A stretch of 37,630 nt of DNA from an uncultured Myxococcales bacterium (GTDB lineage: Bacteria > Myxococcota_A > UBA9042): positions 1 to 37,630 of the forward strand of contig CALENB010000477.1 in the NCBI GenBank assembly GCA_937910235.1. Direction: 5' to 3'. Both the position numbers and the translations under genes were made by a program. The notes beneath the pieces were generated by a model. The model was not told the origin of the DNA, ran no database searches, and saw only the letters and a list, made by a program, of their open reading frames with translations. Each line of letters begins with the position of its first letter. Position 1 is the stretch's first letter. Shown in pieces: positions 2 to 27,516 of this stretch.

Positions 2-3000
2 CACAATGGGCTGAACGAACGTGCCGCGAACGACGTCCGGTACAACGCCCGTCAACTTCTGGAAACCGGACACCGATTCGCAGAGGGCGCTCACGACCAG
101 GATGTTCCGATACTTCTCGACGAATTGCGGGCTCAGCACGGCGCCGTTCGTCAGGCCAAACACGATCGGTGCGGTTGTTGGATCGGTCTGTTTGAGGTCA
201 GTCGAGTCGAAACACGGCTCAATCTTCTGCGAAACAAAGGCGCTGACGTTAATGTCATAAGATGCGCCCATGACGGGTACCTCGACGAACACCATCTCCT
301 CAGGTGCCGGGGTGAGGAAGGCGGTGGCGCCTGCGGTCGTCGTCTTGTCGAAGCTGACCGCAGCGGCGCCAGGCTTGGAGGCGACCGTGGTGGTCTGGTA
401 GGCCCAACCAAAGCTCGCGGCGCCCTCCGAGGTGTTCTTCAGGGAGCCCAAACCGTCGTTGAACGGCTCGCTGTAGCACAGGTACGAGCAATCGCCGCTG
501 ATCGCTACGTCGTCGATCTCCACAACACCCGCGGCCGCCTTGGTCTGACCCGATTTGGCAATCAAGACGACGTCGACGACCTTGCCGGAGAACGCCTTGA
601 GGTCGACGCTGATGACCTTCCAGGCCTGCACAGCGTCGCAGGTCTGATGCACAAGCGTGCCGTTGACCATGACGGACAGCGTGTCGCCTCCGCAACCCAC
701 CTCTCCGAGGGTCTTGGCGCGCACGGCGAAGTGCAGCCTTGTGTCGGCGAGGACGGTGACTTCGGGGATAGTGATGCTCGCGCTGTAGGCCTTTCCGTCT
801 GGCGAGCCCCCGGTCCATGTGGCGCGGAGGGACGCCTTGCCGCTGTGGCCGTCCTTGTCGTTGACGTTCCAACTCAGGAAGTTGACCGCTTCTGCCGCGA
901 GCTTCCACGGCTGAGGGATCGCCTTCTCCTTCGCCTGCGTCGTCGTATTGACCACCGGCACCTCAAGCGCGGTCCCCATGCAGCCTTTGGCGCACTTGCC
1001 GCTGAGGGTGATGTCATCGATGCGAACCTCGCCCTTGGTTGTCTTGGTGTAGGTCATCTTGGTGCGCACGACTAGGTCGACCGACCGGCCGGCATACGCG
1101 GTGAGGTCAACGGTGATCAGACCGTATCCCTTCGTCGTCGCGCCCGCGAACGACCCACACTGCTTCCAGGCCGGCGCGCCGTTGACCAGCACCTCCGTGC
1201 AATCCGCCGTCCCCGCAGTGGCCTTGTAGTTGAAGGTAAGCGTCTGCGAGGCATCCGCCTCCAAGTACATCTTGCGGAGAGACAGGGAGAAGTCCCCTTC
1301 GACAACTTCGGTCGTCGCCTTGGCATCCTTTGTGCCATCCCAAGACGCCGACAACACGGAGCTGCCGGTCGCGGCGTCGCCCTGAACCACTGCGAGCGTG
1401 ATGTAGTCGCCCGAGGTGCGCAGGAGCGCGGTCTCGATCGGTTTCTCGAAGCCCTCCACCAAACAAGGGCCACACCCGGCGATCTTGGTGTTGCTGCACG
1501 TGCCGCTTTTGCAGGCATCCAGCGTGCATGGGTCCTTGTCGTCGCAGTCCTTCTGCGTCTGCGCCTTGCACAAGCCATCGATGCACATCGCCGCCTCGAC
1601 GCACTTGTCGCCGTCCGCGCAATTGACCGTAGCGGTGCTGATGCAGACCGCGTTTGGCGAGCCAGCATCGGGTTTCTCGCACTTGTACCCGGTCGCACAG
1701 GCGTCCTTCTCGCCTGCTTTCGCCTTGGGGTCGCAGATCTGCTCAACCGTCAGCGGCGGCCAGCTCGCCACCGGCGTCACCTTGCACTTGAAGGACGAGC
1801 CGCCGTCATCTGCGCAGGTCGCTGTGACACATTCGCCCTGCAGCGCCTTGCACGTCTCGAGTACGCCCGGATTGCAGAAGCCCAGCTGACACGCATCCTT
1901 CACGGTGCAGCCATCTTTGTCAGCGTCGCAGTTCTCGCCGTTCTTGCGCGGGTATGCCTCGCAGAGGTACGTGACGCTGCCCTTATTCGTGCAGCCACCG
2001 ACGATGCACTGACCCTTGTCTTCCTTCGTGCAGTCCGGCGCCTTGCCCGGCACGCACGCGCCGAGCCCGTCACAGGTGTCGTCGACCGTGCAACCGTCCG
2101 CGTCCGCGTCGCACTTGGTGCCCTTGGGCTTCGCGTCCGTCGCGCACTTGAACGTGGTGGCGCTGATCGACTTACAGGTGCCCTGACCACAGCCGTTGGT
2201 CTCCTTCAAGCAGTTCACCGCGGTGCCAGGCTGGCACGCGCCCTTGCCGTTACAGACGTCGTCCTTGGTGCAGCCATTGCCGTCGGCGTCGCACGGGACG
2301 CCGCCGGAAGCGGGCTTCGAGACACACTTGCCCTGGCTCGATGAGAGCGGCTCGCAGGCGCCGATCTGGCAACCGCTGCTACCATCGAGCGAGGAGCAAT
2401 CCTTCATCTTGCCAGGCACACAGGCGCCCGCGATGCACTTGTCGTCGAGCGTGCAGCCGTTGTCGTCGGCCTCACACGGCTTGCTCTCCTTGATTGGCGC
2501 CCCGATGCACGTGAACGTCGTCTTACCGGTAGATTTGCACGCACCCACGGTGCAGGCGCCAGTCTTGGCGTTGCAGTCCGGCGGCACGCCCGGCACGCAG
2601 ATGCCCTGGGCGCAGATGTCGTTTGACGTGCAGCCGTTATCATCCGCGTTGCACTCGCCGCCATTGTTCTTGGGTTGCGCGGTACAGCCACCCTTGCCGC
2701 CGTTGTTGGTCTTGTCGCAGACCCCGACGGCGCACTCCACGTTGACGTCCGCGCTACAGTTGTAGGGGCCAGTGCCCGCCTGGCACTTGCCAGACTTGCA
2801 CGCGTCGCCCGCCGTACAAAGCTGACCGTCGTCACATGTGGCGCCATCCTTGGCGCCGGTGATCTTGCAGGTGAACCCGCCGCTGCCGTCCTTCACGCAG
2901 GCAGCGAGCTCGCACTCGCCGGCGACGCCGTCGCAGCTGATCGGCTTGCCGGCCTTGCACTTGCCGTCGTCACACGTATCGCCCGCTGTGCAGGGGTCGC

Positions 3001-6000
3001 CGTCGGCGTCACAGACGATCGTGCCGGCCTTGGGCAGCGGAACGCAGCTGTAGCCAGCCTGCGCCGTGGCATCAAAGACACACGCCGCGCTGTTGCAGCT
3101 GTCGCCGACGGACGAGCAGTCCACTTCACCGGCCGATTTGCACTGACCGTTGGTGCAGGTGTCGCCCACGGTGCAGGGCAGGTCGTCGTCGCACTTGCTG
3201 CCGTTGACGAGCTCATTGACCGCGCACACACCCGTGAGCGTATTGCACTGGTTCTTCGCGCACGCGGTGTCGCCTGTGCCGTCGCACTGCACGACGGTCT
3301 TGTCCTCGATGCAGTTACCGAGCAGGTCGGTCGGCTTCTTCTTCACGCACTCCCACTTGCCGTCGCAGAGGTTGTTGTTGTCCTTCACCTTGCAGTCGTT
3401 GTCGCTGCTGCACGTCACGCAGAGGTCTTTGTCCTTCGGGATGCAGAAGCCGCCCTGGCACTGCGAGGCCGACGAACACACGTCGCCGTCGTCACAATCT
3501 GAGCCGTCCTTCTTGTCGTCGTACTGGCAGCCCTTGCCGCTGATGCAGGCGTCCACTGTGCAGGCGTTGCCGTCATCACAGTCCAAGGCCGTGCTCGCGC
3601 ACTTGCCCTTGCCATCACAGCGGTCGGTAGTGCAGGCCTTGCCGTCATCACACTTCGTCGCGGTGTCCTCGACAGGCAAGTTCACGCAGCCGCCCGTCTC
3701 GTCCTTCGTCGTAGCGGTGCACTTGTCGGTGGTGCAGACGTTCTGGTCGTCGCAGTCCTTCAACTTCGCCTCGCACTGGCCCTTGTTGCAGACGCCCTTG
3801 TCGGTGCAAGCGTCGCCGTCGTCACAGGGCTGAAAGCCGTCTAGATTGCTGTGTAAGCAGCCTTTGGTGTTGTCGCACTTGTCGAACGTGCAGTCGTTCT
3901 CATCGTCGCAGACGTTCTGCTTGTTCTGGCAGCCGCTCTTCGCGTCGCAGTTGTCGACTGTGCAGACGTTGTTGTCGTTGCAGTTGACGGCGGTGCCCTC
4001 GCACGAGCCGGTCTTGCATTTGTCGAGATACGTGCAGGCGTTGCCGTCGGTGCAGTTCTTGCCGTCGTCAGGGACGATGGTGCAGCCATTGACCGGCGAG
4101 CATGGCCCGGCGATCTTGGTGCAAGCGTTGCCATCGTCGCAGTCGACCAGCTTGGCCTCGCACTCACCCTTGATATTGCAGGCGTCGGCGCTGGTGCACT
4201 TGTTGCCGTCATCGCAGGCCTTGCCAACCGACGCCTTGATTACACAGGCGCCGTTGATGCAGCTGTCCTCGGTGCACGCGCTGCCATCGTCGCAGTCCTT
4301 CGCCTTGCCGGCGCACTTCGCCTGAATGTCGCAGTGGTCCAAGGCGGTACAGGCGTTGCCATCGTCGCAGTCCTTACCGAGCTCGAGTTTGTTCAGGCAG
4401 CCACCCTTGCCGTCGCAGCCATCGACCGTGCACGGGTTGTTGTCGTCGCACGTCAGCGCGGAGCTCTTGCAGACACCGTCGAGGCACTTGTCGCCGGTGG
4501 TGCACGGGTCGCCGTCGCTGCAGACGAGCTTGTTGTCCAGCAACGCGCTGCATTTTCCGGTCTTGCCGCTGCAGAGGTCGATGGTGCAAGGGTTGTCGTC
4601 GTCGCAGCTCTTCTTGGCGCCCGCACACTTGCCCTTCGCGCACTTGTCCGTCTCGGTGCAGGCGTCGCCGTCGTCGCACTGGCCCCCGTCGCCCACGTCG
4701 CCGTGCACACATCCTGCCAACGGGCCACACGCGTCGACCGTGCAGGGGTTCTGGTCGTCGCAGCTGAGCTTGGCATCCGTCGTGCATTTGCCAGCTTTGC
4801 AGGTGTCCTGAATGGTGCACTTGCTGCCGTCATCACAGACCAAACCATCCTTCTTGGGCGTGACCGCACACTTGCCAGTCGTCTTTACGCAGAGGTTTTC
4901 GGTGCAGGACTCCTTGCTGGGGTCGCAGATTACCGTTGTCGCCGGTCCGACGAGGCAGAGTTTGCCGATGCACTGGAACACGCCATTGCACAGGTCACCG
5001 TCTTCAAACTTGGTGCACTCACTGTCGGAGGCACAAGCGCACTTGTTCTGCGCCGGTGTGCTCGAACAGATGCCGTCCTTGCAGGCCTCGCCGGCGGTGC
5101 AGACGTTGTTGTCGTCGCAGACCGATGCGTCCGCTTTTGCGGCGTTTTTGCAGCCGACCTTGGGGTCGCAGCTGTCGTCGGTGCACGGCTCACTGTCGTC
5201 GCAGTCCTTCTTGCTGCCTTCGCACGTGCCTGAGTCGGAGCAGACCGTGCTCGCGAGGCACTTGTCGTTGCTCACGCAGGGCACGCCTTTCTGCTTCTTA
5301 AGCAGCTCGCACTTGCCGCTGGTCGGATTGCACTGGTTGGTGCCGCAAGCCGGATCATCCGCCGGCGTACACACCACCACCGTCTTCAGGTCGAGCTGGC
5401 AGACCTTGCCGAGCTTCGAGGCCGCGCAGTGGGCGGTACCATTACAGAGGTTGTTGTCCTGCAGACTGGCGCACTGCAGGTCTGAGGTGCAGAGCACGCA
5501 GCTGTTCGTGCCGACACATTTGCCGAGGTCACACTGGTCGTTGTGGGTGCAGCTGATGCCGTCGTCGCACTGCGATCCACCCGCTAGCGGCACGTATTTG
5601 CAGCCTGTGAGCGTGTCGCAGATGTCCGTGGTGCATGGGTTGTCGTCGTCACACGTCACCGACTTGCCGCCACACGCACCCGCTGTGCAGAGGTCTTCCG
5701 TGGTGCACTTGTTGCCGTCGTCGCAGGGTCCGGTGAAGGTCGTGTGCACGCACTTGCCCGTCGCCGGATCGCACGCGTCGTTGGTGCAGGGCTTGTTGTC
5801 ATCGCAGTCGGCTTTCACGCCCAGGCACTTGCCGGCGCTGCACTTGTCGAGCTCGGTGCACTTATCGCCGTCGTCGCAGAACACGTCGTTCTTCGGGACG
5901 TGAAAGCAGCCGCTCTGGGGCGAACAGCCGTCGTTGGTGCAGGGCGACTTATCGTCGCACATGCCGGTCGTGGTGTAGCCCTCGCCGGTGCACTTACCTT

Positions 6001-7216
6001 TGACACACGCGTCTTTCTGCGTGCATTTGTCGCCATCATCGCACTTGAGGCCATCGGCCTGGGCCGGCGAGACGCAGCTGCCCGTCTTCTTGTCGCAAGC
6101 GTCCGCGGTGCACGAGTTGCCGTCGTTGCAGACCAGCGCCTTGCCGGTGCAGAGCCCGGCGCTGCACAGATCGTTGGTGGTGCAGCCGTCTTCATCGCTG
6201 CAGGGTTTGCCATCGGGCGCGGCGGTGCTGGTGATCTTGCCGGTCGTCTTGTCGCACGACACCAGCAAACAGGGGTTGGTCTGCTGAGCGGCGGCCACGG
6301 TCGCGCCTTTGCACTTGCCGTCGGCGCACTCGTCTTTGTCGGTGCACTTGTCGCTGTCGTCGCAAGAGACGCCGTTCTGATAGGCCGGAAACACGCAGCC
6401 CGTCTTCGAATCGCAGCTGTCCTTGGTGCACGGAATCTGGTCGTTACAGACGACCGCGCCGCCAGACACGCACTTGCCAGCCGCGTCGCACTTATCTGGG
6501 TCGGTGCAGGCGTCGCCGTCCGAGCACGGCGTGTCCTTCTCCTGCGGCGTGTTCAGACAACCCTTGTCTTTGTCGCAGCTCTCGATGGTGCAGCTCTCGT
6601 TGTCGTCGCACTTGGTGTGGGGGTCGAACGCGGTGCCGGCGCAGGCGCCCTGGCCGCAGAGATCGTCGTCCGTACACGCGTTGTCATCGTCACACTTGAC
6701 CTTGGCCGAGTCGGGCGTTTTGGCGACGGCGCAGGTGCCGTCATCCTTGCAGATCGGGTCGTAGCAGACTTCGGCGGTGCACGACATCTCGCCCGCGCAG
6801 GCGCCTTTTGCGTCGCACTTGTCGTTCTTCGTGCAGGCCTTGGCGTCGTCGCAATCAGCACCCGCAGCTTTCTGCTTGGCGACGCATGATCCGGCCTCAC
6901 ACACCGCCGCGAGACACGAATTGTCGAGGGTCACCTTGCCAACGCAGTCTGCGTCCGCTGTGCAGGTCCCGGCGTCTTGCCCAACCGTGTCGGCAGCGCC
7001 GCCCGTGTCTGCGTCGCTGGTTGCATCTAGGCTCGGAACGTCCTCGGGGCCGGTATCAGCGCCGCCCGCTGTGTCAGGCTTGGTCACCGGGTCTGCGCCG
7101 CAACCAACCGCCAGCAGCAACGCGAGAGACGCCAAACCACGGGCCACCATCACGTCGCGCGCGATGCGTCGGTTGTGGGAAGGAGACAGGGTGACCAGAG
7201 AGATGGGGCGGAGCAT
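2..7216 (-). CDS. Giant cysteine-rich CTDC-repeat lipoprotein (3' end beyond window)
   Basis: The minus frame is open from ATG at 7216 to the left edge (about 2,405 codons) with no stop, so the C-terminus is missing. Two starts compete. ATG 7216 has an AGGGA about 7 nt upstream. ATG 7150 gives a compact lipoprotein signal (MVARG, hydrophobic LASLALLLA, lipobox AVGC) but no clear ribosome site. Both share the same lipidated Cys. Next comes a D/T/G-rich linker of about 45 residues, then a long array of cysteine repeats of the type CDDGNxCTxDxC...GC (to about position 1460). These resemble the Dictyostelium CTDC repeat of extracellular-matrix proteins. The last about 480 residues form three similar domains of about 160 residues; the first two end in [IV]DD[IV]x[IL]SGxC, which suggests jelly-roll/MAM-like binding folds. 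A surface-anchored adhesin or matrix role is inference. The gene diverges from a smaller relative at 7680. Confidence 0.88.
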   Translation of the reverse strand, partial: MLRPISLVTLSPSHNRRIARDVMVARGLASLALLLAVGCGADPVTKPDTAGGADTGPEDVPSLDATSDADTGGAADTVGQDAGTCTADADCVGKVTLDNSCLAAVCEAGSCVAKQKAAGADCDDAKACTKNDKCDAKGACAGEMSCTAEVCYDPICKDDGTCAVAKTPDSAKVKCDDDNACTDDDLCGQGACAGTAFDPHTKCDDNESCTIESCDKDKGCLNTPQEKDTPCSDGDACTDPDKCDAAGKCVSGGAVVCNDQIPCTKDSCDSKTGCVFPAYQNGVSCDDSDKCTDKDECADGKCKGATVAAAQQTNPCLLVSCDKTTGKITSTAAPDGKPCSDEDGCTTNDLCSAGLCTGKALVCNDGNSCTADACDKKTGSCVSPAQADGLKCDDGDKCTQKDACVKGKCTGEGYTTTGMCDDKSPCTNDGCSPQSGCFHVPKNDVFCDDGDKCTELDKCSAGKCLGVKADCDDNKPCTNDACDPATGKCVHTTFTGPCDDGNKCTTEDLCTAGACGGKSVTCDDDNPCTTDICDTLTGCKYVPLAGGSQCDDGISCTHNDQCDLGKCVGTNSCVLCTSDLQCASLQDNNLCNGTAHCAASKLGKVCQLDLKTVVVCTPADDPACGTNQCNPTSGKCELLKKQKGVPCVSNDKCLASTVCSDSGTCEGSKKDCDDSEPCTDDSCDPKVGCKNAAKADASVCDDNNVCTAGEACKDGICSSTPAQNKCACASDSECTKFEDGDLCNGVFQCIGKLCLVGPATTVICDPSKESCTENLCVKTTGKCAVTPKKDGLVCDDGSKCTIQDTCKAGKCTTDAKLSCDDQNPCTVDACGPLAGCVHGDVGDGGQCDDGDACTETDKCAKGKCAGAKKSCDDDNPCTIDLCSGKTGKCSALLDNKLVCSDGDPCTTGDKCLDGVCKSSALTCDDNNPCTVDGCDGKGGCLNKLELGKDCDDGNACTALDHCDIQAKCAGKAKDCDDGSACTEDSCINGACVIKASVGKACDDGNKCTSADACNIKGECEAKLVDCDDGNACTKIAGPCSPVNGCTIVPDDGKNCTDGNACTYLDKCKTGSCEGTAVNCNDNNVCTVDNCDAKSGCQNKQNVCDDENDCTFDKCDNTKGCLHSNLDGFQPCDDGDACTDKGVCNKGQCEAKLKDCDDQNVCTTDKCTATTKDETGGCVNLPVEDTATKCDDGKACTTDRCDGKGKCASTALDCDDGNACTVDACISGKGCQYDDKKDGSDCDDGDVCSSASQCQGGFCIPKDKDLCVTCSSDNDCKVKDNNNLCDGKWECVKKKPTDLLGNCIEDKTVVQCDGTGDTACAKNQCNTLTGVCAVNELVNGSKCDDDLPCTVGDTCTNGQCKSAGEVDCSSVGDSCNSAACVFDATAQAGYSCVPLPKAGTIVCDADGDPCTAGDTCDDGKCKAGKPISCDGVAGECELAACVKDGSGGFTCKITGAKDGATCDDGQLCTAGDACKSGKCQAGTGPYNCSADVNVECAVGVCDKTNNGGKGGCTAQPKNNGGECNADDNGCTSNDICAQGICVPGVPPDCNAKTGACTVGACKSTGKTTFTCIGAPIKESKPCEADDNGCTLDDKCIAGACVPGKMKDCSSLDGSSGCQIGACEPLSSSQGKCVSKPASGGVPCDADGNGCTKDDVCNGKGACQPGTAVNCLKETNGCGQGTCKSISATTFKCATDAKPKGTKCDADADGCTVDDTCDGLGACVPGKAPDCTKEDKGQCIVGGCTNKGSVTYLCEAYPRKNGENCDADKDGCTVKDACQLGFCNPGVLETCKALQGECVTATCADDGGSSFKCKVTPVASWPPLTVEQICDPKAKAGEKDACATGYKCEKPDAGSPNAVCISTATVNCADGDKCVEAAMCIDGLCKAQTQKDCDDKDPCTLDACKSGTCSNTKIAGCGPCLVEGFEKPIETALLRTSGDYITLAVVQGDAATGSSVLSASWDGTKDAKATTEVVEGDFSLSLRKMYLEADASQTLTFNYKATAGTADCTEVLVNGAPAWKQCGSFAGATTKGYGLITVDLTAYAGRSVDLVVRTKMTYTKTTKGEVRIDDITLSGKCAKGCMGTALEVPVVNTTTQAKEKAIPQPWKLAAEAVNFLSWNVNDKDGHSGKASLRATWTGGSPDGKAYSASITIPEVTVLADTRLHFAVRAKTLGEVGCGGDTLSVMVNGTLVHQTCDAVQAWKVISVDLKAFSGKVVDVVLIAKSGQTKAAAGVVEIDDVAISGDCSYLCYSEPFNDGLGSLKNTSEGAASFGWAYQTTTVASKPGAAAVSFDKTTTAGATAFLTPAPEEMVFVEVPVMGASYDINVSAFVSQKIEPCFDSTDLKQTDPTTAPIVFGLTNGAVLSPQFVEKYRNILVVSALCESVSGFQKLTGVVPDVVRGTFVQPIV
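1465..6970 (-). repeat. Array of CTDC-type cysteine-rich repeats within the giant lipoprotein
   Basis: Dozens of degenerate units of about 35-45 residues are read on the minus strand. Each is built on C-[DN]-D-x-[ND]-x-C-T-x-D-x-C followed by G-x-C, often alternating between a 'DPxTGC' half and a 'DKCxxGKC' half. Spacing and wording change along the array. The downstream units (about 1500-3000) carry longer inserts such as the CDADGNGCTxDDxC form with extra cysteines, whereas the upstream units are shorter and more regular. At DNA level the recurring CGA/CGT codons keep antisense frames open, which creates many spurious plus-strand reading frames. Confidence 0.85.
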
Positions 7217-7679: not shown

Positions 7680-9536
7680 ATGTTGATCCCTCGTCCATCC
7701 CCGCTGCTGCTCGTAGCGCTCTTTGCCAGCGGCACGATGTTGGGCTGTGGCAACGACGAGACTCCGGGGTCGACCTCCAGCGCCGGCACCGTCGACACCA
7801 AACAAGGCATCGACTTCGCCGTCAGCGGCGACAATGCGGCGGGCGAAGCGGACGTCGACGTGAACACCGGCGGCGCGGACGCGGGCACGGTGGACCCAGG
7901 CACGTTTGGCGCGAAGTGCAAGACCAACGACGACTGCGACACCGCCCTGTGCGTACAGGGCGCCAACGGCAAGCTGTGCACGAAAGTGTGTGAAGAAAGC
8001 TGCCCGAGTGGTTTCACGTGCGCCGAGAAGAAGACGCCCGGCGGCGACGTGATCTACCTGTGCCTGCCGAGGTTCCTCTACCTCTGCGATCCATGCGACT
8101 TCAACTCGCAGTGCAACGACGCTGGCAAGAGCGGCAACGTCTGCGTCAGTTTTGGCAAGCCCGGCAGCTTCTGCGGCATCAAGTGTGACGAGGTGAGCCC
8201 GGACTGCCCGACGAGCTACAGCTGCCAGCAAGTGGTGGACAGCAAGACGGGCCTGACATCGAGCCAGTGTGTGCGGGACAAGGGATTGTGCGAGTGCAGC
8301 GAGCGGGCGACCGAGTTGGCGCTGGCGACGACGTGCACCAATCAGAACCTGTACGGCGCGTGTAAGGGCGTGCGCAACTGCACCGGCGGCGGCCTGAGTC
8401 AGTGCCAGGCCATGGTGCCAAAACCCGAGGAATGCAACGGAATAGACGATGATTGCGACGGCAACACCGACAACTTCGACGCGACGGCCTCCTGCAAGAA
8501 GACCAACGAGTTCGGCAGCTGCCCGGGCATCATCGTCGCCTGTCTCGACGGCAAGACGACGTGCGACGCGCCAGCGGCCAAGCCCGAGGGATGCAATGGC
8601 GTCGATGATGATTGTGACGGAGAGACGGACGAGGGCCTCTGCGACGACGGCGACCCGTGCACCAACGACACGTGCAACAGCGATGGCTCCTGCAAACACA
8701 AGGAGCTCGCTGGGCTGGCTTGTGACGATGGCTCGCTCTGCACGCAGACCGATAAGTGCCTCGCCGGCAAGTGTGTGGGCGGCAACGCGCTCGATTGCGA
8801 CGACAAGGACCCGTGCACCAACGACACGTGCGACCCCTTCACCGGCTGTGTGCACAAGGCGTCGTCGGACGCCGTCTGCCCGGATGACGGCGAGGTCTGC
8901 ACGCAGGACCTCTGCAAGGAGGGCAAATGTCTGCATCCGCAGGCCAAAGACGGCTCCACCTGCGCCGACGACGGCCTGATCTGTACGCAAGACGCCTGCC
9001 AAGCCGGCACCTGCGCGCATCTGCCGAAGAATGGCGGTGTTTGCACGGATGACGGTAACGGCTGCACCAAGGACGTCTGCTCGGCGGGCGCGTGCAAGCA
9101 CATCCCGGCGACGGGGAGCGCGTGCGAGGACGGCAACCCGTGCACGCTGAAGGACACCTGCAACGCCGGCAAGTGTTTGTCGGGGCCGCTCAACCAGTGC
9201 AACGACAACAACCCCTGCACCAAGGACGTGTGCACGCCACAGACCGGCTGCAAACACTCGAACAACGACTACGCGCTGTGCACGGCGAGCTCGGCGGATT
9301 GCCCGGTAGGCACATGCAGCGGCGGCGGTTGTTTCAGCAAGCCGAACGTTGCCTGCAACACCAAGGTCAAAGTTGGGCTGTGCGACAAGATCGACGTCAA
9401 GGGCACGTGCGCATCGTCGGGCCAATGCTCGCCCCAGTCGACGCCGAAGGGCGTCTCTTGCCCGAACTGCAAGTCGGTCTGCACCAGCTGCTTCGGCATC
9501 TTGATCTGCCTCGACTTCCTGTTCGCTGGGCCATAG
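7680..9536 (+). CDS. Cysteine-rich lipoprotein with MopE-like motifs and CTDC repeats
   Basis: 618 residues. ATG 7680 is preferred over the upstream in-frame ATG (7536) because it has GGAG 6 nt upstream and begins a lipoprotein signal peptide with a TMLGC lipobox (Cys about 23). A D/G/T-rich linker follows, then a cysteine-rich domain (about 80-215) with CxxC and C-x4-8-C spacings. Next are two copies of the motif CNG[IV]DDDCDGxTD (near residues 251 and 304), which match the metal-binding repeat of Methylococcus MopE-type proteins. From about residue 320 to the end there are CTDC repeats like those of the divergent giant lipoprotein. The product is probably exported to the outer membrane or cell surface. 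Ca2+ or Cu binding by the acidic loops is possible but unproven. The two genes are likely relatives sharing a repeat module. Confidence 0.9.
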   Translation: MLIPRPSPLLLVALFASGTMLGCGNDETPGSTSSAGTVDTKQGIDFAVSGDNAAGEADVDVNTGGADAGTVDPGTFGAKCKTNDDCDTALCVQGANGKLCTKVCEESCPSGFTCAEKKTPGGDVIYLCLPRFLYLCDPCDFNSQCNDAGKSGNVCVSFGKPGSFCGIKCDEVSPDCPTSYSCQQVVDSKTGLTSSQCVRDKGLCECSERATELALATTCTNQNLYGACKGVRNCTGGGLSQCQAMVPKPEECNGIDDDCDGNTDNFDATASCKKTNEFGSCPGIIVACLDGKTTCDAPAAKPEGCNGVDDDCDGETDEGLCDDGDPCTNDTCNSDGSCKHKELAGLACDDGSLCTQTDKCLAGKCVGGNALDCDDKDPCTNDTCDPFTGCVHKASSDAVCPDDGEVCTQDLCKEGKCLHPQAKDGSTCADDGLICTQDACQAGTCAHLPKNGGVCTDDGNGCTKDVCSAGACKHIPATGSACEDGNPCTLKDTCNAGKCLSGPLNQCNDNNPCTKDVCTPQTGCKHSNNDYALCTASSADCPVGTCSGGGCFSKPNVACNTKVKVGLCDKIDVKGTCASSGQCSPQSTPKGVSCPNCKSVCTSCFGILICLDFLFAGP

Positions 9537-9652: not shown

Positions 9653-12600
9653 TTGCAGGAGCCGCAACAGCAACCAGAACCCAAACCGCGGCGCGGCGGC
9701 CCGTGGCGTCGCGCGCTGCGCATGGTTGGCGCTGCGATCTACCAGCTCACGATCCGGCTCGCGGTCAACGTCGCCATCGCGGTGCTGTTTCTCTACTTCG
9801 CCATCAACTCAGCGGCTGTTGCGTCCCGGATCAGCGCCTTCGCGAGTGATCAGGTGCCCGGCACGATCACGACACGACACATCCAGTGGGGCCCAGATCC
9901 CGGTCAGCTGCGTTTGATTCGCCCGGTGGTCAAAGACGCAGAAGGCCACCTCGTGATCGCCGCGGAGTGGATGAGCGTTGGTGTGAGCTGGCTCGGCATG
10001 GTGCAACAGGCGCTCGCGGGTAAAGGCCTGCGGGCGATCCGGATCAGGCAGGTGGTGATCGCTGGTCCGCGAGTCGCGCTGGAGACCAACGAGGCGGGGC
10101 AGCTGCGGTTGGCGCTCGCGTTTGTGACCCCGAGCGATGAGCCCGAGAAAGCGACGCCGCCGGGCGCGCCGCTGGCCCTGATCATCGACGCGATCACGGT
10201 CAAAGCGGGGCACTTCCTGATGGATCTCAGCGGCACGCGGATCGACGCCGCCGGGATTGAGATGGAGGCCGATTTTCGCCTGCAGCTGAGCGGCGAACAG
10301 GCGGGGAGCTACGCGTACAACGGTCGTGCCATCTCGGCGAAACGAATGGCGATGTGGCTACAGTCCTTTGAGACGGCCGGGTTGGCGCAGCTGCCGGCCA
10401 GCCAGATCAGCGTCGCGCGGGTGTCCGGCGATCAACATGGCGTGCGCTGTTTGGGGACGACGTCGACCGCGCCGCACACGCGAATCACCCGGGGAGACGT
10501 CGTGGTGCGTCTCGATGCGCCCGGCCCCACGCCCGGGACGTTCGGCGTCGACGTGAAGGTGACCGACACCGCCATCGCCACATCGACGACGGAGCCCTTT
10601 GTGGCGCGGCTGCTGGGACCGACGTTCGCGGCAAAGGCGGAGATGATCGGCTCGGTGAGCGTCGGTACGAACGGCGCCACGCACGTTGAGGTGGGGGTGA
10701 CGGGCGCCGGCAAAATGGCGGGTTTCCAGACGCGGTCGGTGTCGACGCTGGTGATGGTGGACGTAGGCGATCGCGCCGATGAGATCGTGCGGGTCCGCGC
10801 GGAGAAGCTGCATATCCAGGCTTTTGGCGGCGATCTGCGATCCAAAGAGGTGCGCTATCGGCTCGGCAAAGATGGCGAACAACGGGTGACGGGGCACGTG
10901 CAGCTCAAGGGTGTGTCGGTGGCGGAGGCGCTGACGAGCGAGGCAGTGGGGATGACGACGGCTGGCGCGGCGGCCATGGCTGGTGTGCTGGACGGCGAGC
11001 TGGAGACCGACGTCAAGCTGCGAATCGACGGGGACAAGAAGCCGCCGCTCAGCATGGTGGCAAAAGTCGGCGGCCTGCTGACGTTGCGGCGCGCGGAAGG
11101 GGCGACGCTGCTGCGCGAGGCCCTGCCGACGCTGCATCTGCGGGGCCAGATCGACACGATCATGTCCCCGCACGGCGAGCCGCCGCGGCCGCTCACCATC
11201 GAGCTTGGTCAGGTCCTGATCTCCGATCAGGCGGACGCGGCCGGGGTACCAAAGCGGGCCGCGAAGGCGACGTGGATCTTCGCCGATGGCGAGGTGGATC
11301 TGCATCGCGCGCGCGTTGAGCTGCGGCTCGACGCCAACCTGCCAGACTTAGCGCGGCTGCTGCTGCCTTTCGGCGTCAAGGGCGTGGGCGGCTCGGCGCG
11401 GCTCGACGACGTCGGGGTCAAGGGGCCGTGGCTGAACCCTGAGATCGCCGGCGGCCTGGACGCGCGGCAGCTGGTGGCGGGTGGCCAGCAGATCAAGCGG
11501 CTGAAGACACGGCTCGCCTTGAGCGACGGGGTGCTCAAGCTGACCGGGCTGCGGGCGGAGGTCGCGCTCGGTCAGGCCGCTGGTGACCTTGAGCTGGATC
11601 TGTACGAGCGCGACCTCACCAAGCTGCGCAAACACATGCAGCTGCGTGGCGCGCGGGTCCGCGTGTCGGGCGTAGACCTCGCTGGGCTGCTCAAACCCTA
11701 CAAAATCGACTATCTGAAGGGGGAGCTGGATCTGAGTCGGGTCAGTTTTGAGCTCGACCTGAGCGATCCCCTCAAAACGGTCGATGCCCGGGCCCACCTG
11801 CACATCACCCGACCGGTGCTGCGTCACGAGCGGCTCAAGCGCCTCGACGCGGACGTGCGATTTGGTGGCGGCCGCGTCGACGTGCGCAAGCTGGAGATGG
11901 AGTACCAGCCCATCGCGCTCGCCGGGCTGGCGCCCAACGTGAAGGCGCCGACGGTGACGGTCGAGCGGCTGACGTACGGACTCGACACGCAGCGCTTCGA
12001 GCTGACAGGGCTGACTTGGCCGAGGATGGCCTTGTCGCGGATCGGTGAGGTGGCCGCGCTGAAGATGCCGCTGCACGGCACGATCGCGATGACCGTGAAG
12101 GAGGCGAAGGGATCGGCGACCGATCTCTCGTTCGACGCGGCGATGTCGTTCACCGGGCTCGCCTGGGACAAGATCTTCATGGGTAGCGCCGACGTCGCGA
12201 TCCGAAAAAACCCCGGAAAACCGGCCGTGGTGACCAGTGAGCGGTTCTTTGACCGCTTCGAGCTCATGGGTGGGTCGCGGGTGCACTTCACACGCATCGT
12301 GCCGACCTGGATGCAGTTCAACCTGAAGACCGCGCGGCTCGACCCGATGGCCTTCCTCGGCCTCCCGCCGATGTCGGATCTGCGCATGCTGGCGACGGGA
12401 AAAGCCGAGTTTCGCTTGGATTTCCGGCCGGGTCACGACGTCTTCACCGTGCACACGGAGCTGCCCAAGGGCGGCGCGGAGCTGGAGTTGGGCAATGGCC
12501 TCGAGCCGATCTCGAATCTGCACCCAGCGACGATCGACATCTTCCCCGACCGGGTCAAGATCGGCAGCATGAGCCTGCCGTTTGGGCGCGACATCCTGGA

Positions 12601-14188
12601 GATGTGCGGCGAGTTCGTCTTCCCCAATGAGGCGAAGGGCGTACCGAGCATCTTGCGGATGTACCTCGCTGGCACCCTGGATGTGCCGCGTTTTGGCGCC
12701 CTCGCCGAGAGCATGGCGGCGCTCGATATGCGGCTGCGCATCGACAAGGACCCGCTGGTGGAGCTCGACAAGCGCTCGCGCTGCCTCACCACGGCGGCGG
12801 CGCAGGGCGGGATCATGCGGCTCGCCGGCCCGCTCGATGCCCTCGCGGCGCAGGGCCAGCTGCGTCTGCTGCAGTCGCGGATGACGCCGCGTGGTTACGG
12901 CAAAGAGGTGGTGCTGGCAGAGGGCGCCCAGCTGGAGTTGAGCACGTTGGCGAAGGGGCGGCTGCGTGTGCGCATCCCGGTGGACAGTCGCCTCCAGGGC
13001 CAGATCGAAGAGAGCACCTTCTCCACCTGGGGCACGCTGCACGTCATCGGCTACACACCCCAAGACGTCGATTGGCACTTCGAGGCCGTGGATCTGGCGC
13101 ACACGGTCCCCAAGGAATACTCGGTGGTGATGTCGACCCAGCTGCGCTTGCTCGGCGACCGGCTCGCCGACGAAAAACGCCGGAATCTCAAGCTGAGCGG
13201 CAAGATCACGGTCACGGAGGGCAGCTACTCCAAGAGCTTCGACCGACTCGGCAAGGTCATCAGCGGCGTGCGGGGTCGCGAGCTGGAGGCGTATTCGGAG
13301 CCGCTCATGGAGCGCATGCCGTGGATTGGTCGCATCGGCATGGATCTCAAGGTCAACGGCAGCAACTTCTTGGTGCTGTCCCGCTTCCCCTTCGGCAAGA
13401 CCGATCTGGAGCTGAGCATGGATCTGCGGGTGCGCGGCACGTTTGCGCAGCCCAAGATCTACGACCGGGTAGTCATCGAACCGGGCAGCATTCTGACCTA
13501 TTCGGTGGTCAAACGAGACTTCGAAGTCACGCGCGGAACCATTGATTTCCGGGGTGATCCGGCGAAGGGCGTGCTCGATCTGGAGGCGAAAGATGACGTC
13601 GAAGTGAACAACACCGACTCGGCGTCCGCCAGCACCACGATGAGCGTCGGCCCAAACCTGTCGGGCACGAGCAGCTCGGGGTATGCCCAGATCGTGACGG
13701 TGATCATCCGGGTCTCGGGTCCGCTGGACGATCCCAGCAAGCTGGTGATCGATTTCAGCTCGGTGCCGCCCTATCAGCAGGGTGACATCCAATCCCTGAT
13801 CCTGACCGGGCAGCTGCTCACCTCGAGCAGCGCGTCGGGATCGCTCGGCTCGCGGGCCAGCATCAACTTGCTGACGGACGATCTGGCCCAGGCCTTCAGC
13901 GACATGCTGCTGTCGGCGTTTGTGGACAAGGTCACCATCGGTATCCCCGTGGCCGGCGGCGTGTCCGCGACGGTCACAACGAAGCTCGGCAAGTACCTGA
14001 CCCTGCGCGGCGAGTACAAGTCGCAGCCAGGCGTCCGCGAGATGATCGGGCGTTTTGCGTTCAATTTGCCGCTGGAGAGCCTCTATCTGGAGTCGCTGCT
14101 GCTCTCGAGAGAAGTGGACAGCAACAATGCGCTCAACACCAACATCTTCGAAGGCCGCATTCGCTACCGCCTCACGTTGGAGGACTGA
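9653..14188 (+). CDS. tamB: TamB/AsmA-like translocation and assembly protein
   Basis: 1,511 residues, longer than the roughly 1,260 of E. coli TamB. The TTG start is chosen because AGGAG lies 6 nt upstream and because the next Met (residue 24) sits just before the membrane segment. A basic N-terminus leads into one signal-anchor helix (about 34-53). The long middle is a series of short beta-strand pairs rich in 'LxLxG' and 'GxLxLxxG' patterns, as in AsmA/TamB beta-taco grooves. The C-terminal about 380 residues carry the DUF490/TamB features: 'GSILTY', 'ITRGTIDFRG'-like strands (here EVTRGTIDFRG), an S/T-rich insert, and a final stretch ending in 'EGRIRYRLTLED'. TamB-like proteins span the periplasm and work with an Omp85 partner in outer-membrane protein or lipid transport. 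That partner is the next gene, only 4 bp downstream, so the two form an operon. Confidence 0.88.
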   Translation: MQEPQQQPEPKPRRGGPWRRALRMVGAAIYQLTIRLAVNVAIAVLFLYFAINSAAVASRISAFASDQVPGTITTRHIQWGPDPGQLRLIRPVVKDAEGHLVIAAEWMSVGVSWLGMVQQALAGKGLRAIRIRQVVIAGPRVALETNEAGQLRLALAFVTPSDEPEKATPPGAPLALIIDAITVKAGHFLMDLSGTRIDAAGIEMEADFRLQLSGEQAGSYAYNGRAISAKRMAMWLQSFETAGLAQLPASQISVARVSGDQHGVRCLGTTSTAPHTRITRGDVVVRLDAPGPTPGTFGVDVKVTDTAIATSTTEPFVARLLGPTFAAKAEMIGSVSVGTNGATHVEVGVTGAGKMAGFQTRSVSTLVMVDVGDRADEIVRVRAEKLHIQAFGGDLRSKEVRYRLGKDGEQRVTGHVQLKGVSVAEALTSEAVGMTTAGAAAMAGVLDGELETDVKLRIDGDKKPPLSMVAKVGGLLTLRRAEGATLLREALPTLHLRGQIDTIMSPHGEPPRPLTIELGQVLISDQADAAGVPKRAAKATWIFADGEVDLHRARVELRLDANLPDLARLLLPFGVKGVGGSARLDDVGVKGPWLNPEIAGGLDARQLVAGGQQIKRLKTRLALSDGVLKLTGLRAEVALGQAAGDLELDLYERDLTKLRKHMQLRGARVRVSGVDLAGLLKPYKIDYLKGELDLSRVSFELDLSDPLKTVDARAHLHITRPVLRHERLKRLDADVRFGGGRVDVRKLEMEYQPIALAGLAPNVKAPTVTVERLTYGLDTQRFELTGLTWPRMALSRIGEVAALKMPLHGTIAMTVKEAKGSATDLSFDAAMSFTGLAWDKIFMGSADVAIRKNPGKPAVVTSERFFDRFELMGGSRVHFTRIVPTWMQFNLKTARLDPMAFLGLPPMSDLRMLATGKAEFRLDFRPGHDVFTVHTELPKGGAELELGNGLEPISNLHPATIDIFPDRVKIGSMSLPFGRDILEMCGEFVFPNEAKGVPSILRMYLAGTLDVPRFGALAESMAALDMRLRIDKDPLVELDKRSRCLTTAAAQGGIMRLAGPLDALAAQGQLRLLQSRMTPRGYGKEVVLAEGAQLELSTLAKGRLRVRIPVDSRLQGQIEESTFSTWGTLHVIGYTPQDVDWHFEAVDLAHTVPKEYSVVMSTQLRLLGDRLADEKRRNLKLSGKITVTEGSYSKSFDRLGKVISGVRGRELEAYSEPLMERMPWIGRIGMDLKVNGSNFLVLSRFPFGKTDLELSMDLRVRGTFAQPKIYDRVVIEPGSILTYSVVKRDFEVTRGTIDFRGDPAKGVLDLEAKDDVEVNNTDSASASTTMSVGPNLSGTSSSGYAQIVTVIIRVSGPLDDPSKLVIDFSSVPPYQQGDIQSLILTGQLLTSSSASGSLGSRASINLLTDDLAQAFSDMLLSAFVDKVTIGIPVAGGVSATVTTKLGKYLTLRGEYKSQPGVREMIGRFAFNLPLESLYLESLLLSREVDSNNALNTNIFEGRIRYRLTLED

Positions 14189-14192
14189 GCGG

Positions 14193-17100
14193 ATGCCTGC
14201 CTGCTTCGCGCCACGACGACTGCATGGTTGCCGGCTCCTCGCGGTCGTCTCGCTGGCGCTGTGGTGGTTTCCGCTGACGCTGCAAGCGGGGCCACCACGC
14301 CCGGTGTCGCGCCCCACATCGACGGAGACGCCAGACGCGGTGACGGTGCGCCCAGGCAGCGGCGCGACCCCAACCACGATCAAAACGAGCCAGGGCGCCG
14401 CGGCCCAACCGGCCAACACGACGGCGGCGTTGGAGAGCCACATCGTCGCCGCGGAGACCCGGTGCGGCGGCGCCCAGATCGAGCACACTGAGCTGAGCGG
14501 ATGCCTTGGCACGCGGTGTCAGGATGAGACGGAGCGAGGCCGGTTTGTGCGCCTGACGGGCCTGCAACCAGGCGAAGTCCTGCGACCGGGCATGCTCGCG
14601 AACGCCCGTCTGCGGCTGGAGAAGACCCGCTTTTTTGGCGTGGTGTTCATCCGCTGCCAGCGTGTCGGAGACCGCGCGCGGCTCAGCGTGGGCGTGGTGG
14701 GTAACAGCGTCATTCGGCGCGTTCGATTTGTTGGCAATCAGGCGCTGTTTACGGCCGAGTTGCGCAACAAGGTGCAGCTGCAACCTGGCGACGTGCTCAA
14801 CCCCAACACCGACGAGACGCGACGCACGCTGGAGCAGCAGACGCGGTCGATCCAGGGCGCCTATGCCCGCGAGGGGTTCGATGACGTGAAGGTCCAACTC
14901 GAGGTCACGACCGTCGGCGTGGGGCAAGTGGAGCTGGTGGTGCGTATCGACGAAGGCGAGCGAAAACGGGTGGTCCACCGCAATTTACAGGTGATCGATC
15001 CGCATCAACCGACGCCACGGGAGCGCGCTGCAGGGCTGGTTTGTCAGGATGTCAGCGAGCGCGCGCTGCTGCGGGTCAGCGGGTTGAACACCGTCGATGT
15101 GTTCACGCGACGCGCGGGTGTGCGCGCGCGCAGTCAGATCCGCGTGCGTCTGCGGCAGCTCGGCTATGGCAACCCACGGGTCAGCGTGACCCTCGTCGAG
15201 GCCGATCAGGTGGTGCAGGTGCGCGTGCAGTTGGGTCGGTGCAATGTCGTGCGCATTTTTGAGCGCGAGAGCGCCGCGGGCAGCAGCGAGGGCGGGGCCG
15301 GGGAGCGGGACGCTGAGAACTGGCGGATCACCGACGAGGATGACTACACCGCGGTGCTACCGTTCACGCAGAGCGGCGTGTTCGACGTCGACGAAGCCGA
15401 TCGCGGCCGGCGAGCGCTCACCGCGTTGCTGGAGAATCGCGGCTACTTCTTCAGCGACGTGACGCTGGAGGTGCGTGACGTGCCGCAAGCGTGGACGAGT
15501 CGGGTGCGTCGCGCGATCACCTATCATGTGACCACCGGCTATCGCGCGCAGATTCGCGGGCTGCACTTTCCGGGCGCGAAACACTTCACCCGGGCCGAGC
15601 TACTCGAAGGCATCGTCACGCGCCCCTACGACTTCTTCGACGACGGCGGCTACCTGCAGACCGCGCAGCTGCTGGGCGATCTGGACCGGCTGCGCGCCCA
15701 ATACCGGAGCGCCGGGTTCTTCGAGTTTCGCTTCGACATGGCGGCGACCGAATCCACGAACGGCGCTGGACTGCGCCACGGCCGCAAAACGGTGCGTGGC
15801 GAGGAGATCATCGACATCTTGCTGGGCGACCACGGGTTTCGGGTGCGGCGTCCGGTCGATGAGCACTTCATCTACATCGACGTGCCGTTGACGGAAGGCC
15901 GCCGCACCCGCTTGGGCACGCTGGTCGTCGATGGCCCGGGCCAGGAGGGTAGACGCCGTGTTCGCGGGCTCTTCGGCCTAAAAAACGGCGAGGTGCTGTC
16001 CTTCACACGCATGGTCGCTGGCGTGCGCAAGGTGGAGGATTGGTACCAGGATCGCGGCTTCTTTCAGGCGAAGGTCGAGGTGCAGTGCCGGGTTCGCGGC
16101 GCCGCAGCCGAGAGCCTGACCGCGGCGGTGATGACGCCAGTCGACCCGTGCCTGGGCCCGGTGCCGCCCGAGAGCGCCAAGTGTCCGCCGCGGCCCGGCG
16201 CCACGACGCAGTGCGAGGACACCGCTGCGGCAAAGGCAGCCCCGGTGGAGCCCGTCGCGATGCGGCGCTGCAGGCCGGACGACTGGTGCGCGTGCACCGA
16301 GCAACGCATCCTTGGCGCGTCTGTGGATGTGCGACTGCAGATCCAGGAGGGGCCGCGTGTGCGTATCGGCGAGGTCTTCGTCTCGGGTAACTTCATCACC
16401 AACGGTGAGCTGTTGACCGGATACATGCCGAAGTACGACGCACTCTACTCGGGCCAGGTGCTGTTCGAGGCGCTGCGAAAAATCCGCAATCTCGGGGTAT
16501 TTCGCTCCGTCTCGATCCAACAGATCGGCGCCGACGAGTGCCCGCCGCGCCGGCATGTCGCCCTGGTGGTGCGGGTGGTGGAGAACGACCGCACCACCAT
16601 CGATCTCGACGCCGGCTTTCAGACCGCCAACGTCAACCGTGACGCCTCCAACACCAGCGTCGGCGAGCCTCCGCTGCTCCTGGTTGACGCGCTCGAGCAC
16701 CTCGTCGCGGCCGGGGCGCGGCTCAACACCGGCTCGGGCCAACGAGTCGGGGCGACGCTACCGAAGCTGGTGCTGACCATGAGCGCGGACTGGCGCAACC
16801 GGAACTTCCGCGGCGAGGGCGAGGAGCTGCGGGGTGTGTTTCGGGTCGGTGTCTCGTCAGATCTGAGAGACCTAGCCACCCAACCCTTCTCGCTGGGCCT
16901 GCTCGCCGCCTCCTGGACCAACTCGCACCTGCCCTACGACGTCTCGCTCAAGGTGATCCCGTTTGCCTCCCGCGATTTCGTCACCACGATCGTCGATGTC
17001 GACAAGATCGGCGTCGCCACAGAGATCTCCAAGCGCTTCCTGCAGCACCTCTCCCTCTCCCTCGGCGCGGAGGGCGGGTTCGTGAGCTATCGGCCGCTGC

Positions 17101-17909
17101 CGTCGGACCCCATGACTGGCTTCAACAAGCAGCTGAAGGTGATCCCGCGAGGCACCTGGGATCGCCTCAACAGCCCCATCAACCCGACCCGCGGCGTTTT
17201 TGCGACGACGTCTATCGCCTACATCAACGCGATTATTGAGGATGGCGACAAACCGACCGCGAATCAGGGCAACTTTCTCAAGTTCGAGGCGCAGCTGAAG
17301 TGGTACGGCACGCTGCGCGACACCTTCACGCTGGCGCTGACGGTGCGCGGCGGCACGGCGATGCGCCTGGGCGACAAGGGCGCGACCGCCGGCGCCGGCC
17401 TGCCCTCCAACGAGACGTTCCGCTTAGGCGGTCAGCTCGGGCTGCGCGGCGTGACGGATAACGGCGTGCTGCAATACGGCCGAGATGGTGCCCCGTTGCC
17501 GCTGCTCGACACCCACGGCGACCCGGTCTGCGCGGGCGAAAACGACACCCCGCCCTGCAGTGATCTCAGCGCGGGCATCCGCACACGCGCGGACGGCTCG
17601 ATGCTGCTGGCGGGAACGGTGGAGGGCCGCTTCCCGTTGATCCGTCGCGCCGGTCTCTGGGGTGCCGCGTTCTGGGACTGGGGTGTCATCTCGGACGACC
17701 TGAACGGCCTGTCCTACGGCAAGGCCTTCCGGCACGGCGTCGGTCTCGGGCTGCGTTATCTGATCTCGGGTCAGATCCCCGTCCGCATCGACTACGGCGT
17801 CGCGGTCGATCGGCGGTGCACGCAACCCTTCAAGGCGATGGGCCAGCGCACCTGCGCGAAGATCGAGGAGTTTGGTCAGCTACAGGTCGGCCTGCTCTAC
17901 GCCTTCTAG
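14193..17909 (+). CDS. tamA: Omp85-family outer membrane protein (TamA/BamA-like) with POTRA domains
   Basis: 1,238 residues from ATG 14193, 4 bp after the tamB stop. A signal peptide (hydrophobic core LLAVVSLALWW, cleavage after about LQA32) precedes several POTRA-like modules to about residue 790. Examples are 'VRRVRFVGNQALFTAELRNK'-type and 'RIGEVFVSGNFITNGEL' strands with 'AYAREGF' and 'WYQDRGFFQAKV' helices. The C-terminal about 440 residues form the beta-barrel. It includes the Omp85 loop signature FRLGGQLGLRGV (about 1077-1088; RG as in the V/I-RGF motif) and 'FWDWGVISDD'. The protein is about twice the length of E. coli TamA (577). It contains a Cys/Pro-rich insert (about 635-710, at least seven Cys) within the POTRA region, unusual for this family. 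Its position right after tamB argues for a TamA role, but BamA-like function cannot be excluded. Confidence 0.87.
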   Translation: MPACFAPRRLHGCRLLAVVSLALWWFPLTLQAGPPRPVSRPTSTETPDAVTVRPGSGATPTTIKTSQGAAAQPANTTAALESHIVAAETRCGGAQIEHTELSGCLGTRCQDETERGRFVRLTGLQPGEVLRPGMLANARLRLEKTRFFGVVFIRCQRVGDRARLSVGVVGNSVIRRVRFVGNQALFTAELRNKVQLQPGDVLNPNTDETRRTLEQQTRSIQGAYAREGFDDVKVQLEVTTVGVGQVELVVRIDEGERKRVVHRNLQVIDPHQPTPRERAAGLVCQDVSERALLRVSGLNTVDVFTRRAGVRARSQIRVRLRQLGYGNPRVSVTLVEADQVVQVRVQLGRCNVVRIFERESAAGSSEGGAGERDAENWRITDEDDYTAVLPFTQSGVFDVDEADRGRRALTALLENRGYFFSDVTLEVRDVPQAWTSRVRRAITYHVTTGYRAQIRGLHFPGAKHFTRAELLEGIVTRPYDFFDDGGYLQTAQLLGDLDRLRAQYRSAGFFEFRFDMAATESTNGAGLRHGRKTVRGEEIIDILLGDHGFRVRRPVDEHFIYIDVPLTEGRRTRLGTLVVDGPGQEGRRRVRGLFGLKNGEVLSFTRMVAGVRKVEDWYQDRGFFQAKVEVQCRVRGAAAESLTAAVMTPVDPCLGPVPPESAKCPPRPGATTQCEDTAAAKAAPVEPVAMRRCRPDDWCACTEQRILGASVDVRLQIQEGPRVRIGEVFVSGNFITNGELLTGYMPKYDALYSGQVLFEALRKIRNLGVFRSVSIQQIGADECPPRRHVALVVRVVENDRTTIDLDAGFQTANVNRDASNTSVGEPPLLLVDALEHLVAAGARLNTGSGQRVGATLPKLVLTMSADWRNRNFRGEGEELRGVFRVGVSSDLRDLATQPFSLGLLAASWTNSHLPYDVSLKVIPFASRDFVTTIVDVDKIGVATEISKRFLQHLSLSLGAEGGFVSYRPLPSDPMTGFNKQLKVIPRGTWDRLNSPINPTRGVFATTSIAYINAIIEDGDKPTANQGNFLKFEAQLKWYGTLRDTFTLALTVRGGTAMRLGDKGATAGAGLPSNETFRLGGQLGLRGVTDNGVLQYGRDGAPLPLLDTHGDPVCAGENDTPPCSDLSAGIRTRADGSMLLAGTVEGRFPLIRRAGLWGAAFWDWGVISDDLNGLSYGKAFRHGVGLGLRYLISGQIPVRIDYGVAVDRRCTQPFKAMGQRTCAKIEEFGQLQVGLLYAF

Positions 17910-25896: not shown

Positions 25897-25925
25897 TTTA
25901 TGCTGAAAGCCATTAAACGTGTCAA
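25897..25925 (-). promoter_or_regulatory. Strong sigma70-type promoter of tRNA-Pro
   Basis: On the minus strand a consensus TTGACA (25925-25920) is followed after 17 bp by CATAAA (25902-25897), then a GC-rich discriminator (CGCGGCCC) typical of stringently controlled stable-RNA promoters. Predicted transcription begins near 25890, leaving a leader of about 33 nt before the tRNA. The -35 hexamer overlaps the selA stop codon. Confidence 0.7.
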
Positions 25926-27460: not shown

Positions 27461-27469
27461 CGGGACTTC

Positions 27470-27516
27470 GGCGCCACAGGTCTTGACTCTGGCGCCGCAG
27501 CGGACAAGTTGGCGCC
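27470..27516. promoter_or_regulatory. Three evenly spaced GGCGCC palindromes between selA and the ABC exporter gene
   Basis: GGCGCC occurs at 27470-27475, 27491-27496 and 27511-27516, i.e. at intervals of 21 and 20 bp (about two helical turns), filling the 56-bp divergent gap. The first two sites form a larger inverted repeat (GGCGCCA ... TGGCGCC). A TTGACT at 27483-27488 could be a -35 element but has no good -10. The phasing hints at an operator array; this is inference. Confidence 0.35.

Follow-up and report, generated by a model that had tools for sequence, protein, structure and literature searches.

Near the left end of a 37,630-nucleotide stretch of DNA from an uncultured Myxococcales bacterium (hereafter the window) lies the gene of a giant protein, composed largely of CTDC cysteine repeats and bearing a bacterial lipoprotein signal and three predicted C-terminal jelly-roll domains, which is probably a stalk, laced by disulfides and anchored through lipid, that ends in a variable binding tip. 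Judged by sequence comparison, predicted stalk proteins of this kind represent a class-wide expansion and the giant is not an isolated gene. Beyond the first description of this protein, we report at least 60 CTDC genes in the host genome, expansion throughout the host's class, two alternating types of repeat module, and a conserved gene block that includes a second CTDC lipoprotein, TamB and Omp85. A scan of named genomes identified 37 loci, mostly in MAGs deposited as Myxococcales, Deltaproteobacteria or Proteobacteria, and the isolate names of several hint at lakes; the host is a relative of the myxobacteria and probably lives in lakes. Searches of plasmid and viral collections revealed no relative.

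Reading frame and boundaries of the giant gene

The minus-strand frame at 2-7216 runs without a stop for 2,405 codons and exits the contig at its left end. Because the window is the whole of contig CALENB010000477.1, one of 593 in a 7.10-Mb assembly, this edge is an assembly break. The lipobox LLAVGC, with its cysteine at residue 39, stands after Met23, and since Met23 directly precedes the lipoprotein signal we regard nt 7150 as the more probable start than nt 7216. Signal peptide, lipobox and the cysteine at +1 that characterize bacterial lipoproteins are thus all represented in the giant, a hydrophobic stretch with a lipobox occurs at the same N-terminal place in 13 of 17 orthologs, and the third-codon-position G+C of 0.85 is that expected for a real gene in G+C-rich DNA. 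The original prediction, of a single open frame extending from a lipobox to the left edge and exceeding 2,400 residues, is borne out; it had also called for a search to the left for the stop codon. The first 400 bases of the window overlap no other contig of the genome, and orthologs place the stop instead: in L074, a complete gene with 68% identity to the giant, and in L141, the frame closes about 25 residues past the window edge (...YVDDIKMLCK, stop), which shows that the giant lacks no more than about 25 residues of its C-terminus. Neither a stop nor a frameshift interrupts the frame, which is kept and stop-terminated in 15 other genomes. The features of the gene, numbered by residues of the open frame, are as follows.

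2-7150, minus strand: giant CTDC-repeat lipoprotein gene, probable start Met23 (open frame, PF00526 match, 17 aligned orthologs)
7100-7150, minus strand: predicted lipoprotein signal MVARGLASLALLLAVGC, its lipid-bearing cysteine being residue 39
6965-7099, minus strand: cysteine-free tether rich in Asp, Thr, Gly and Ala, about 45 residues (40-84; from sequence)
3194-6964, minus strand: main CTDC array (residues 85-1341), in which most four-cysteine modules alternate between 24 and 28 residues (Pfam, module listing)
1697-3193, minus strand: variant cysteine repeats of about 60 residues, CDADGNGCTxxDxC...PGxxxDC, residues 1342-1840 (module listing, ortholog alignments)
1463-1696, minus strand: last CTDC module and collar, residues 1841-1918
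992-1462, minus strand: predicted jelly-roll domain 1, residues 1919-2075, boundary approximate (AF2 on 17 orthologs; Foldseek matches to reelin, meprin MAM and carbohydrate-binding domains)
488-991, minus strand: predicted jelly-roll domain 2, choice-of-anchor J/MAM-like, residues 2076-2243 (NF038128)
2-487, minus strand: predicted jelly-roll domain 3, the tip, residues 2244-2405, incomplete, the fastest-evolving part (AF2 on ortholog L141)

The CTDC array and its module types

Dozens of repeats similar to the CTDC profile had been predicted, and are confirmed. The Pfam profile PF00526 (Dicty_CTDC) matched the giant in 12 stretches (E=4.3e-27; 94 bits against a cut-off of 27), and the CTDC core motif occurs in 43 copies, whereas 1,000 shuffles of the residues gave 0.58 copies on average and never more than 4. 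Parsing of the sequence revealed the tandem four-cysteine modules of about 24 residues that define the family, about 65 four-cysteine modules in all. Two types of module, of 24 and 28 residues, alternate strictly: with type A defined as C-x5-C-x5-C-x4-C and type B as C-x5-C-x4-C-x5-C, the order AB was recorded 658 times and BA 697 times across all CTDC proteins fetched, as against six cases of AA and 38 of BB.

Conservation of the stalk and divergence of the tip

In an alignment of 17 sequences, with 42-67% identity to the window giant over its full extent, 263 of 274 cysteines are present in every sequence; invariance is 28% for Asp and 27% for Gly, and exceeds 28% for no residue type other than Cys. 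The length of the protein is also nearly constant, at about 2,450-2,530 codons in nearly all orthologs, and these two features together indicate that the array is frozen and does not behave as a variable tandem repeat. Divergence is least in the stalk and greatest in the outermost jelly-roll, identity to distant orthologs being 45-55% in the main array and 17-22% in the tip (domain 3), or 36-39% and 15-20%, respectively, for residues other than cysteine. The signal and tether are fast-diverging as well (17-43% identity to orthologs). A stable stalk combined with a diverging tip would be the pattern of a receptor or adhesin.

Disulfide pairing and module fold

Losses of cysteine among orthologs bear on the pairing of these residues. 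Both L145 and L148 have lost C203 and C220, the first and fourth cysteines of one module, and have kept the middle two; in L155, C146 and C162 are lost together, again with the two middle cysteines of the module retained. Such paired losses point to a C1-C4 disulfide inside the module. We based this assignment on the orthologs and set aside correlated-loss tables compiled over all fetched CTDC proteins, for which three parsers gave contradictory and artefact-ridden results. By analogy with the Gal/GalNAc lectin of Entamoeba, C2 and C3 are probably bonded to neighbouring modules; in the arc of that lectin, four-cysteine modules of 20-35 residues have their first and last cysteines bonded inside the module and the middle two to its neighbours (PMC12948311).

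This lectin was also retrieved by structural comparison. An AF2 model of residues 1001-1520 consists of all-beta hairpins (mean pLDDT 77.6), with a pTM of 0.29, as for a flexible chain, and its five best Foldseek matches in the PDB were all entries of the Gal/GalNAc lectin (HgL), the best having an E-value of 4.9e-7 and TM-scores of 0.12/0.08. With TM-scores near 0.1 and this pTM, the similarity is local, at the level of the module only, and a comparison of PDB sequences with the ortholog array profile gave no match up to E=10. The arc of the E. histolytica heavy subunit (PDB 9gjg), like the modelled array of the giant, is made of four-cysteine beta modules, of 20-35 residues in the lectin; it forms part of an adhesin, but only seven of its modules are solved, it carries other heads, it has no sequence match to the giant, and the likeness is drawn through a predicted model of low TM-score. 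The cysteine spacing and paired losses fit a first-last bond of the HgL type, within a fold comparison at TM of about 0.1, and the HgL arc offers a good working hypothesis for the fold of CTDC modules, with kinship to HgL not proved. From the original proposal of a disulfide-stiffened stalk, the layout of stalk plus head is supported, with a conserved cysteine scaffold and a fast-evolving tip; the closest solved fold, the arc of an amoebic lectin, suggests a laced, possibly curved chain more than a stiff, straight rod.

The predicted C-terminal head

Three jelly-roll-like domains had been predicted at the C-terminus. An AF2 model of the last 544 residues of ortholog L141 shows all-beta domains (mean pLDDT 88.8, pTM 0.85), and we assign these, with good confidence in the model, as three jelly-rolls. 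Foldseek placed reelin first among matches to the head model, with meprin and accessory domains of carbohydrate enzymes and glycosidases lower down. Within the choice-of-anchor J/InhA-MAM group (NF038128, PF20773), domain 2 of the window giant scores above the NF038128 cut-off (32.2 bits versus 30, best stretch 2097-2239), whereas domains 1 and 3 have diverged too far to be assigned clearly; ortholog L147 scores 19.2 bits with the same profile (cut-off 30). InhA-like_MAM was matched weakly in 13 of the 17 orthologs, with E-values down to 7.6e-6; L141 scores 22.5 bits, below the gathering score of 26.9. Choice-of-anchor J domains are found on bacterial surface proteins with diverse anchors, and jelly-roll folds are functionally promiscuous.

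Gene neighbourhood

Three genes that follow the giant in the window recur with it.

7680-9536, plus strand: gene for a second, small CTDC lipoprotein, oriented divergently to the giant (PF00526, 1e-15; lipobox FASGTMLGC)
9653-14188, plus strand: TamB (PF04357, 7.7e-20; one match in its own genome)
14187-17909, plus strand: Omp85/TamA-like outer-membrane assembly protein with POTRA domains (PF07244, 5.5e-40; PF01103, 3.9e-20; start approximate), one of four Omp85 matches in the host genome

Among family genomes with sufficiently long contigs, most have the giant, the small CTDC gene (587-744 codons, 73-86 cysteines), TamB and Omp85 side by side, and the link between giant and TamB-Omp85 within the family is real. 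TamB is present as a single copy in every family genome that gave a match, and identity between the TamB proteins of most genera is 28-30%. Outside the family, members of the host's class keep the TamB-Omp85 pair and have none of these CTDC genes; in two family members, L153 and L156, the block is broken and the giant is located elsewhere. In a different family of the class (f5), two genomes (L171:15301-19998 and L179:2-4666) carry a CTDC gene of more than 1,550 codons no farther than about 4-5 kb from TamB. The window contains bacterial genes throughout, including one for SelA (selenocysteine synthase; 25922-27607, minus strand).

Expansion of CTDC genes and oxidative folding enzymes

A search of the host genome with the PF00526 profile gave at least 150 matches, and 14 control genomes gave no match. 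In the roughly 0.8 Mb of sequence fetched around these matches there are 66 frames with 1,633 cores, 102,804 residues and 10,087 cysteines; the resulting figures of at least 60 CTDC genes and more than 4% of the genome are lower bounds. Of 60 frames tested with Pfam, 59 were confirmed to contain CTDC, and a lipobox-like signal is present in 37 of the 50 frames whose start lies inside the fetched stretch. The stretch ends, mostly at contig ends, within 27 of the 66 frames, which explains the broken assembly. Partner domains include InhA-MAM (eight proteins), NHL propellers (seven) and RCC1 (five), and in single or few cases CARDB, LamG, FG-GAP, F5/8C, LTD and fibrinogen-C. At one site (L012, L013; G000:C524:13-38 kb) four or more giant CTDC genes lie in tandem, with lengths of about 2,086-2,138 codons and related C-terminal ends.

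All 52 sampled genomes of the host's class matched PF00526, as did 115 of 232 genomes of the phylum outside that class, mostly with few matches each. The anchor of CTDC proteins seems, from their sequences, to change with lineage: those of a Planctomycetota MAG (L093) and of Archangiaceae and Polyangiaceae MAGs (L092, L109) have C-terminal tails resembling sorting tags (IPTVSQWG..., or GCGC...RRRR). Two adjoining CTDC lipoprotein-like genes were also found in a 367-kb contig that is attributed to a patescibacterium (L106; Candidatus Uhrbacteria MAG, JAPLZK010000003.1), which may reflect either transfer or binning error.

In the literature searched, the Dicty_CTDC profile is named by only four papers, none of which has a title concerning bacteria. 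The dictyostelid proteins EcmA, EcmB, PsiA, PsiF and PdiA share with the giant the repeat family, as curated in PF00526, and tandem cysteine-rich arrays. They are extracellular matrix or signal proteins of amoebae; the giant differs in being bacterial, with a lipid-anchor signal and a predicted jelly-roll head in place of PA14. A published table lists 11 CTDC proteins in D. discoideum (PMC4931340), against at least 60 genes in the host genome.

The enzymology of the class fits heavy disulfide traffic. VKOR was found in all 36 class genomes tested; its presence in 96 of 153 other genomes shows that it is not class-specific and makes this mild support only. Two of the three VKOR copies in the host genome are four-domain fusions of VKOR, DsbA, an FGE/sulfatase-modifying-factor-like domain and TlpA (L181:898-3450 and L182:2860-5355; G000:C363, C414), and similarly long VKOR frames occur in most family members.

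Proposed function and alternatives

In the mechanism we favour, Sec export, lipidation of Cys39 and the flexible Asp/Thr-rich tether would place the protein at the outer membrane, where oxidative folding of about 65 four-cysteine modules would produce a continuous chain. Bonds between the first and last cysteines of each module, and probably between the middle two and neighbouring modules as in the Entamoeba lectin arc, would make of these chained modules a protease-resistant stalk of fixed length and perhaps curved shape. The stalk would hold its three jelly-roll domains (MAM/choice-of-anchor J-like) out where they can touch a ligand; the likeliest ligands are glycans or partner proteins borne by other cells, prey or matrix. 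We infer surface exposure, the pairing of the middle cysteines, the nature of the ligand and any role of TamB and Omp85 in the assembly of the giant.

We think it unlikely that the giant is instead a structural element of a coat or matrix, its CTDC chains cross-linked into a surface layer or sheath and its jelly-rolls only aiding assembly. Dozens of cysteine-rich lipoproteins per genome would suit such a coat, and the CTDC and spore-coat proteins of Dictyostelium are matrix proteins (PMC4931340, PMC3068167). The avian eggshell membrane protein CREMP, with its alternating four-cysteine modules, and the likewise disulfide-rich spore coat protein SP75 (PMC3068167) resemble the giant in having four-cysteine modules in long disulfide-rich chains, but have other cysteine spacings, belong to secreted fibre or coat, and carry neither lipid anchor nor jelly-roll head, and no homology is shown. 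Against cross-linking, the length and cysteine positions of each protein are fixed and losses occur in pairs, as suits intramolecular bonding, and the fast divergence of the tip and the variety of heads suit recognition better than packing.

Nor does it appear likely that the giant is a kin- or cell-recognition receptor engaged in homotypic contact through a polymorphic head on a cysteine-rich stalk, like TraA of Myxococcus xanthus, whose repeat region is much shorter. The two agree in layout and in the rapid divergence of the giant's tip: TraA is a surface receptor that combines a variable lectin-like domain and a tag for sorting to the surface with cysteine-rich repeats, which have been proposed to act as a rigid stalk, and its authors noted the resemblance of the repeats to PF00526 (PMC3325183). 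In composition they diverge, TraA having a PA14 domain, TIGR04201 repeats and a MYXO-CTERM tag where the giant has predicted jelly-rolls, CTDC repeats and an N-terminal lipid signal; searches of the giant gave no Pfam match to PA14 and no NCBIfam match to TIGR04201 or MYXO-CTERM.

It is improbable that the giant and the small CTDC lipoproteins serve in the periplasm as accessories of TAM (TamB-Omp85), working with TamB and TamA. Adjacency of the four genes despite the low identity of TamB between genera, and the neighbouring TamB being the only one in the genome, would favour this; we demoted it as the main explanation because the pair persists outside the family with no such CTDC neighbours. 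In addition, L153 and L156 keep the giant with the block broken, and a stalk of about 1,830 residues would be long for the periplasm.

We find it quite improbable that the protein is a store of metal or calcium, with Asp- and Cys-rich loops binding metals and no stalk, a reading prompted by the 287 Asp residues and CDDGN loops of the giant and by a MopE-type metal-binding motif that some sister proteins possess and that is weakly present in the small CTDC protein; cysteines are lost in pairs, as disulfides would be, and the protein is exported to an oxidising compartment with VKOR and DsbA present, although bound calcium may stabilise the fold of CTDC modules. That the gene is an artefact of assembly or annotation (chimera, contaminant or eukaryotic DNA), as contigs ending inside it and other CTDC genes might hint, is very hard to credit given the bacterial content of the window and the same module order and neighbours in orthologs of many independent genomes, which refute it for the frame.

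Implications

A broader and more tentative proposal, which we regard as possible but doubtful, is that a whole class of the Myxococcota has made its cell surface out of giant lipid-anchored stalks drawn from a genome-wide, modular library. Dozens of genes per genome would encode interchangeable heads on a common CTDC stalk, with oxidative folding enzymes dedicated to them. The disulfide-chained module would be shared with matrix proteins and adhesins of amoebozoa, and its fold would recur in the dictyostelid matrix proteins and in the arc of the Entamoeba lectin, through ancient transfer between bacteria and amoebae or through convergence. CTDC repeats have so far been treated as a slime-mould family; since they account for more than 4% of one bacterial genome and are present in all genomes sampled from its class, their main reservoir may be bacterial. 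With 263 invariant cysteines, a grammar of two modules and a candidate solved fold, the question of how CTDC repeats fold becomes directly testable, and the system is offered for studying how bacteria export giant disulfide-rich proteins and how the matrix modules of amoebozoa originated.
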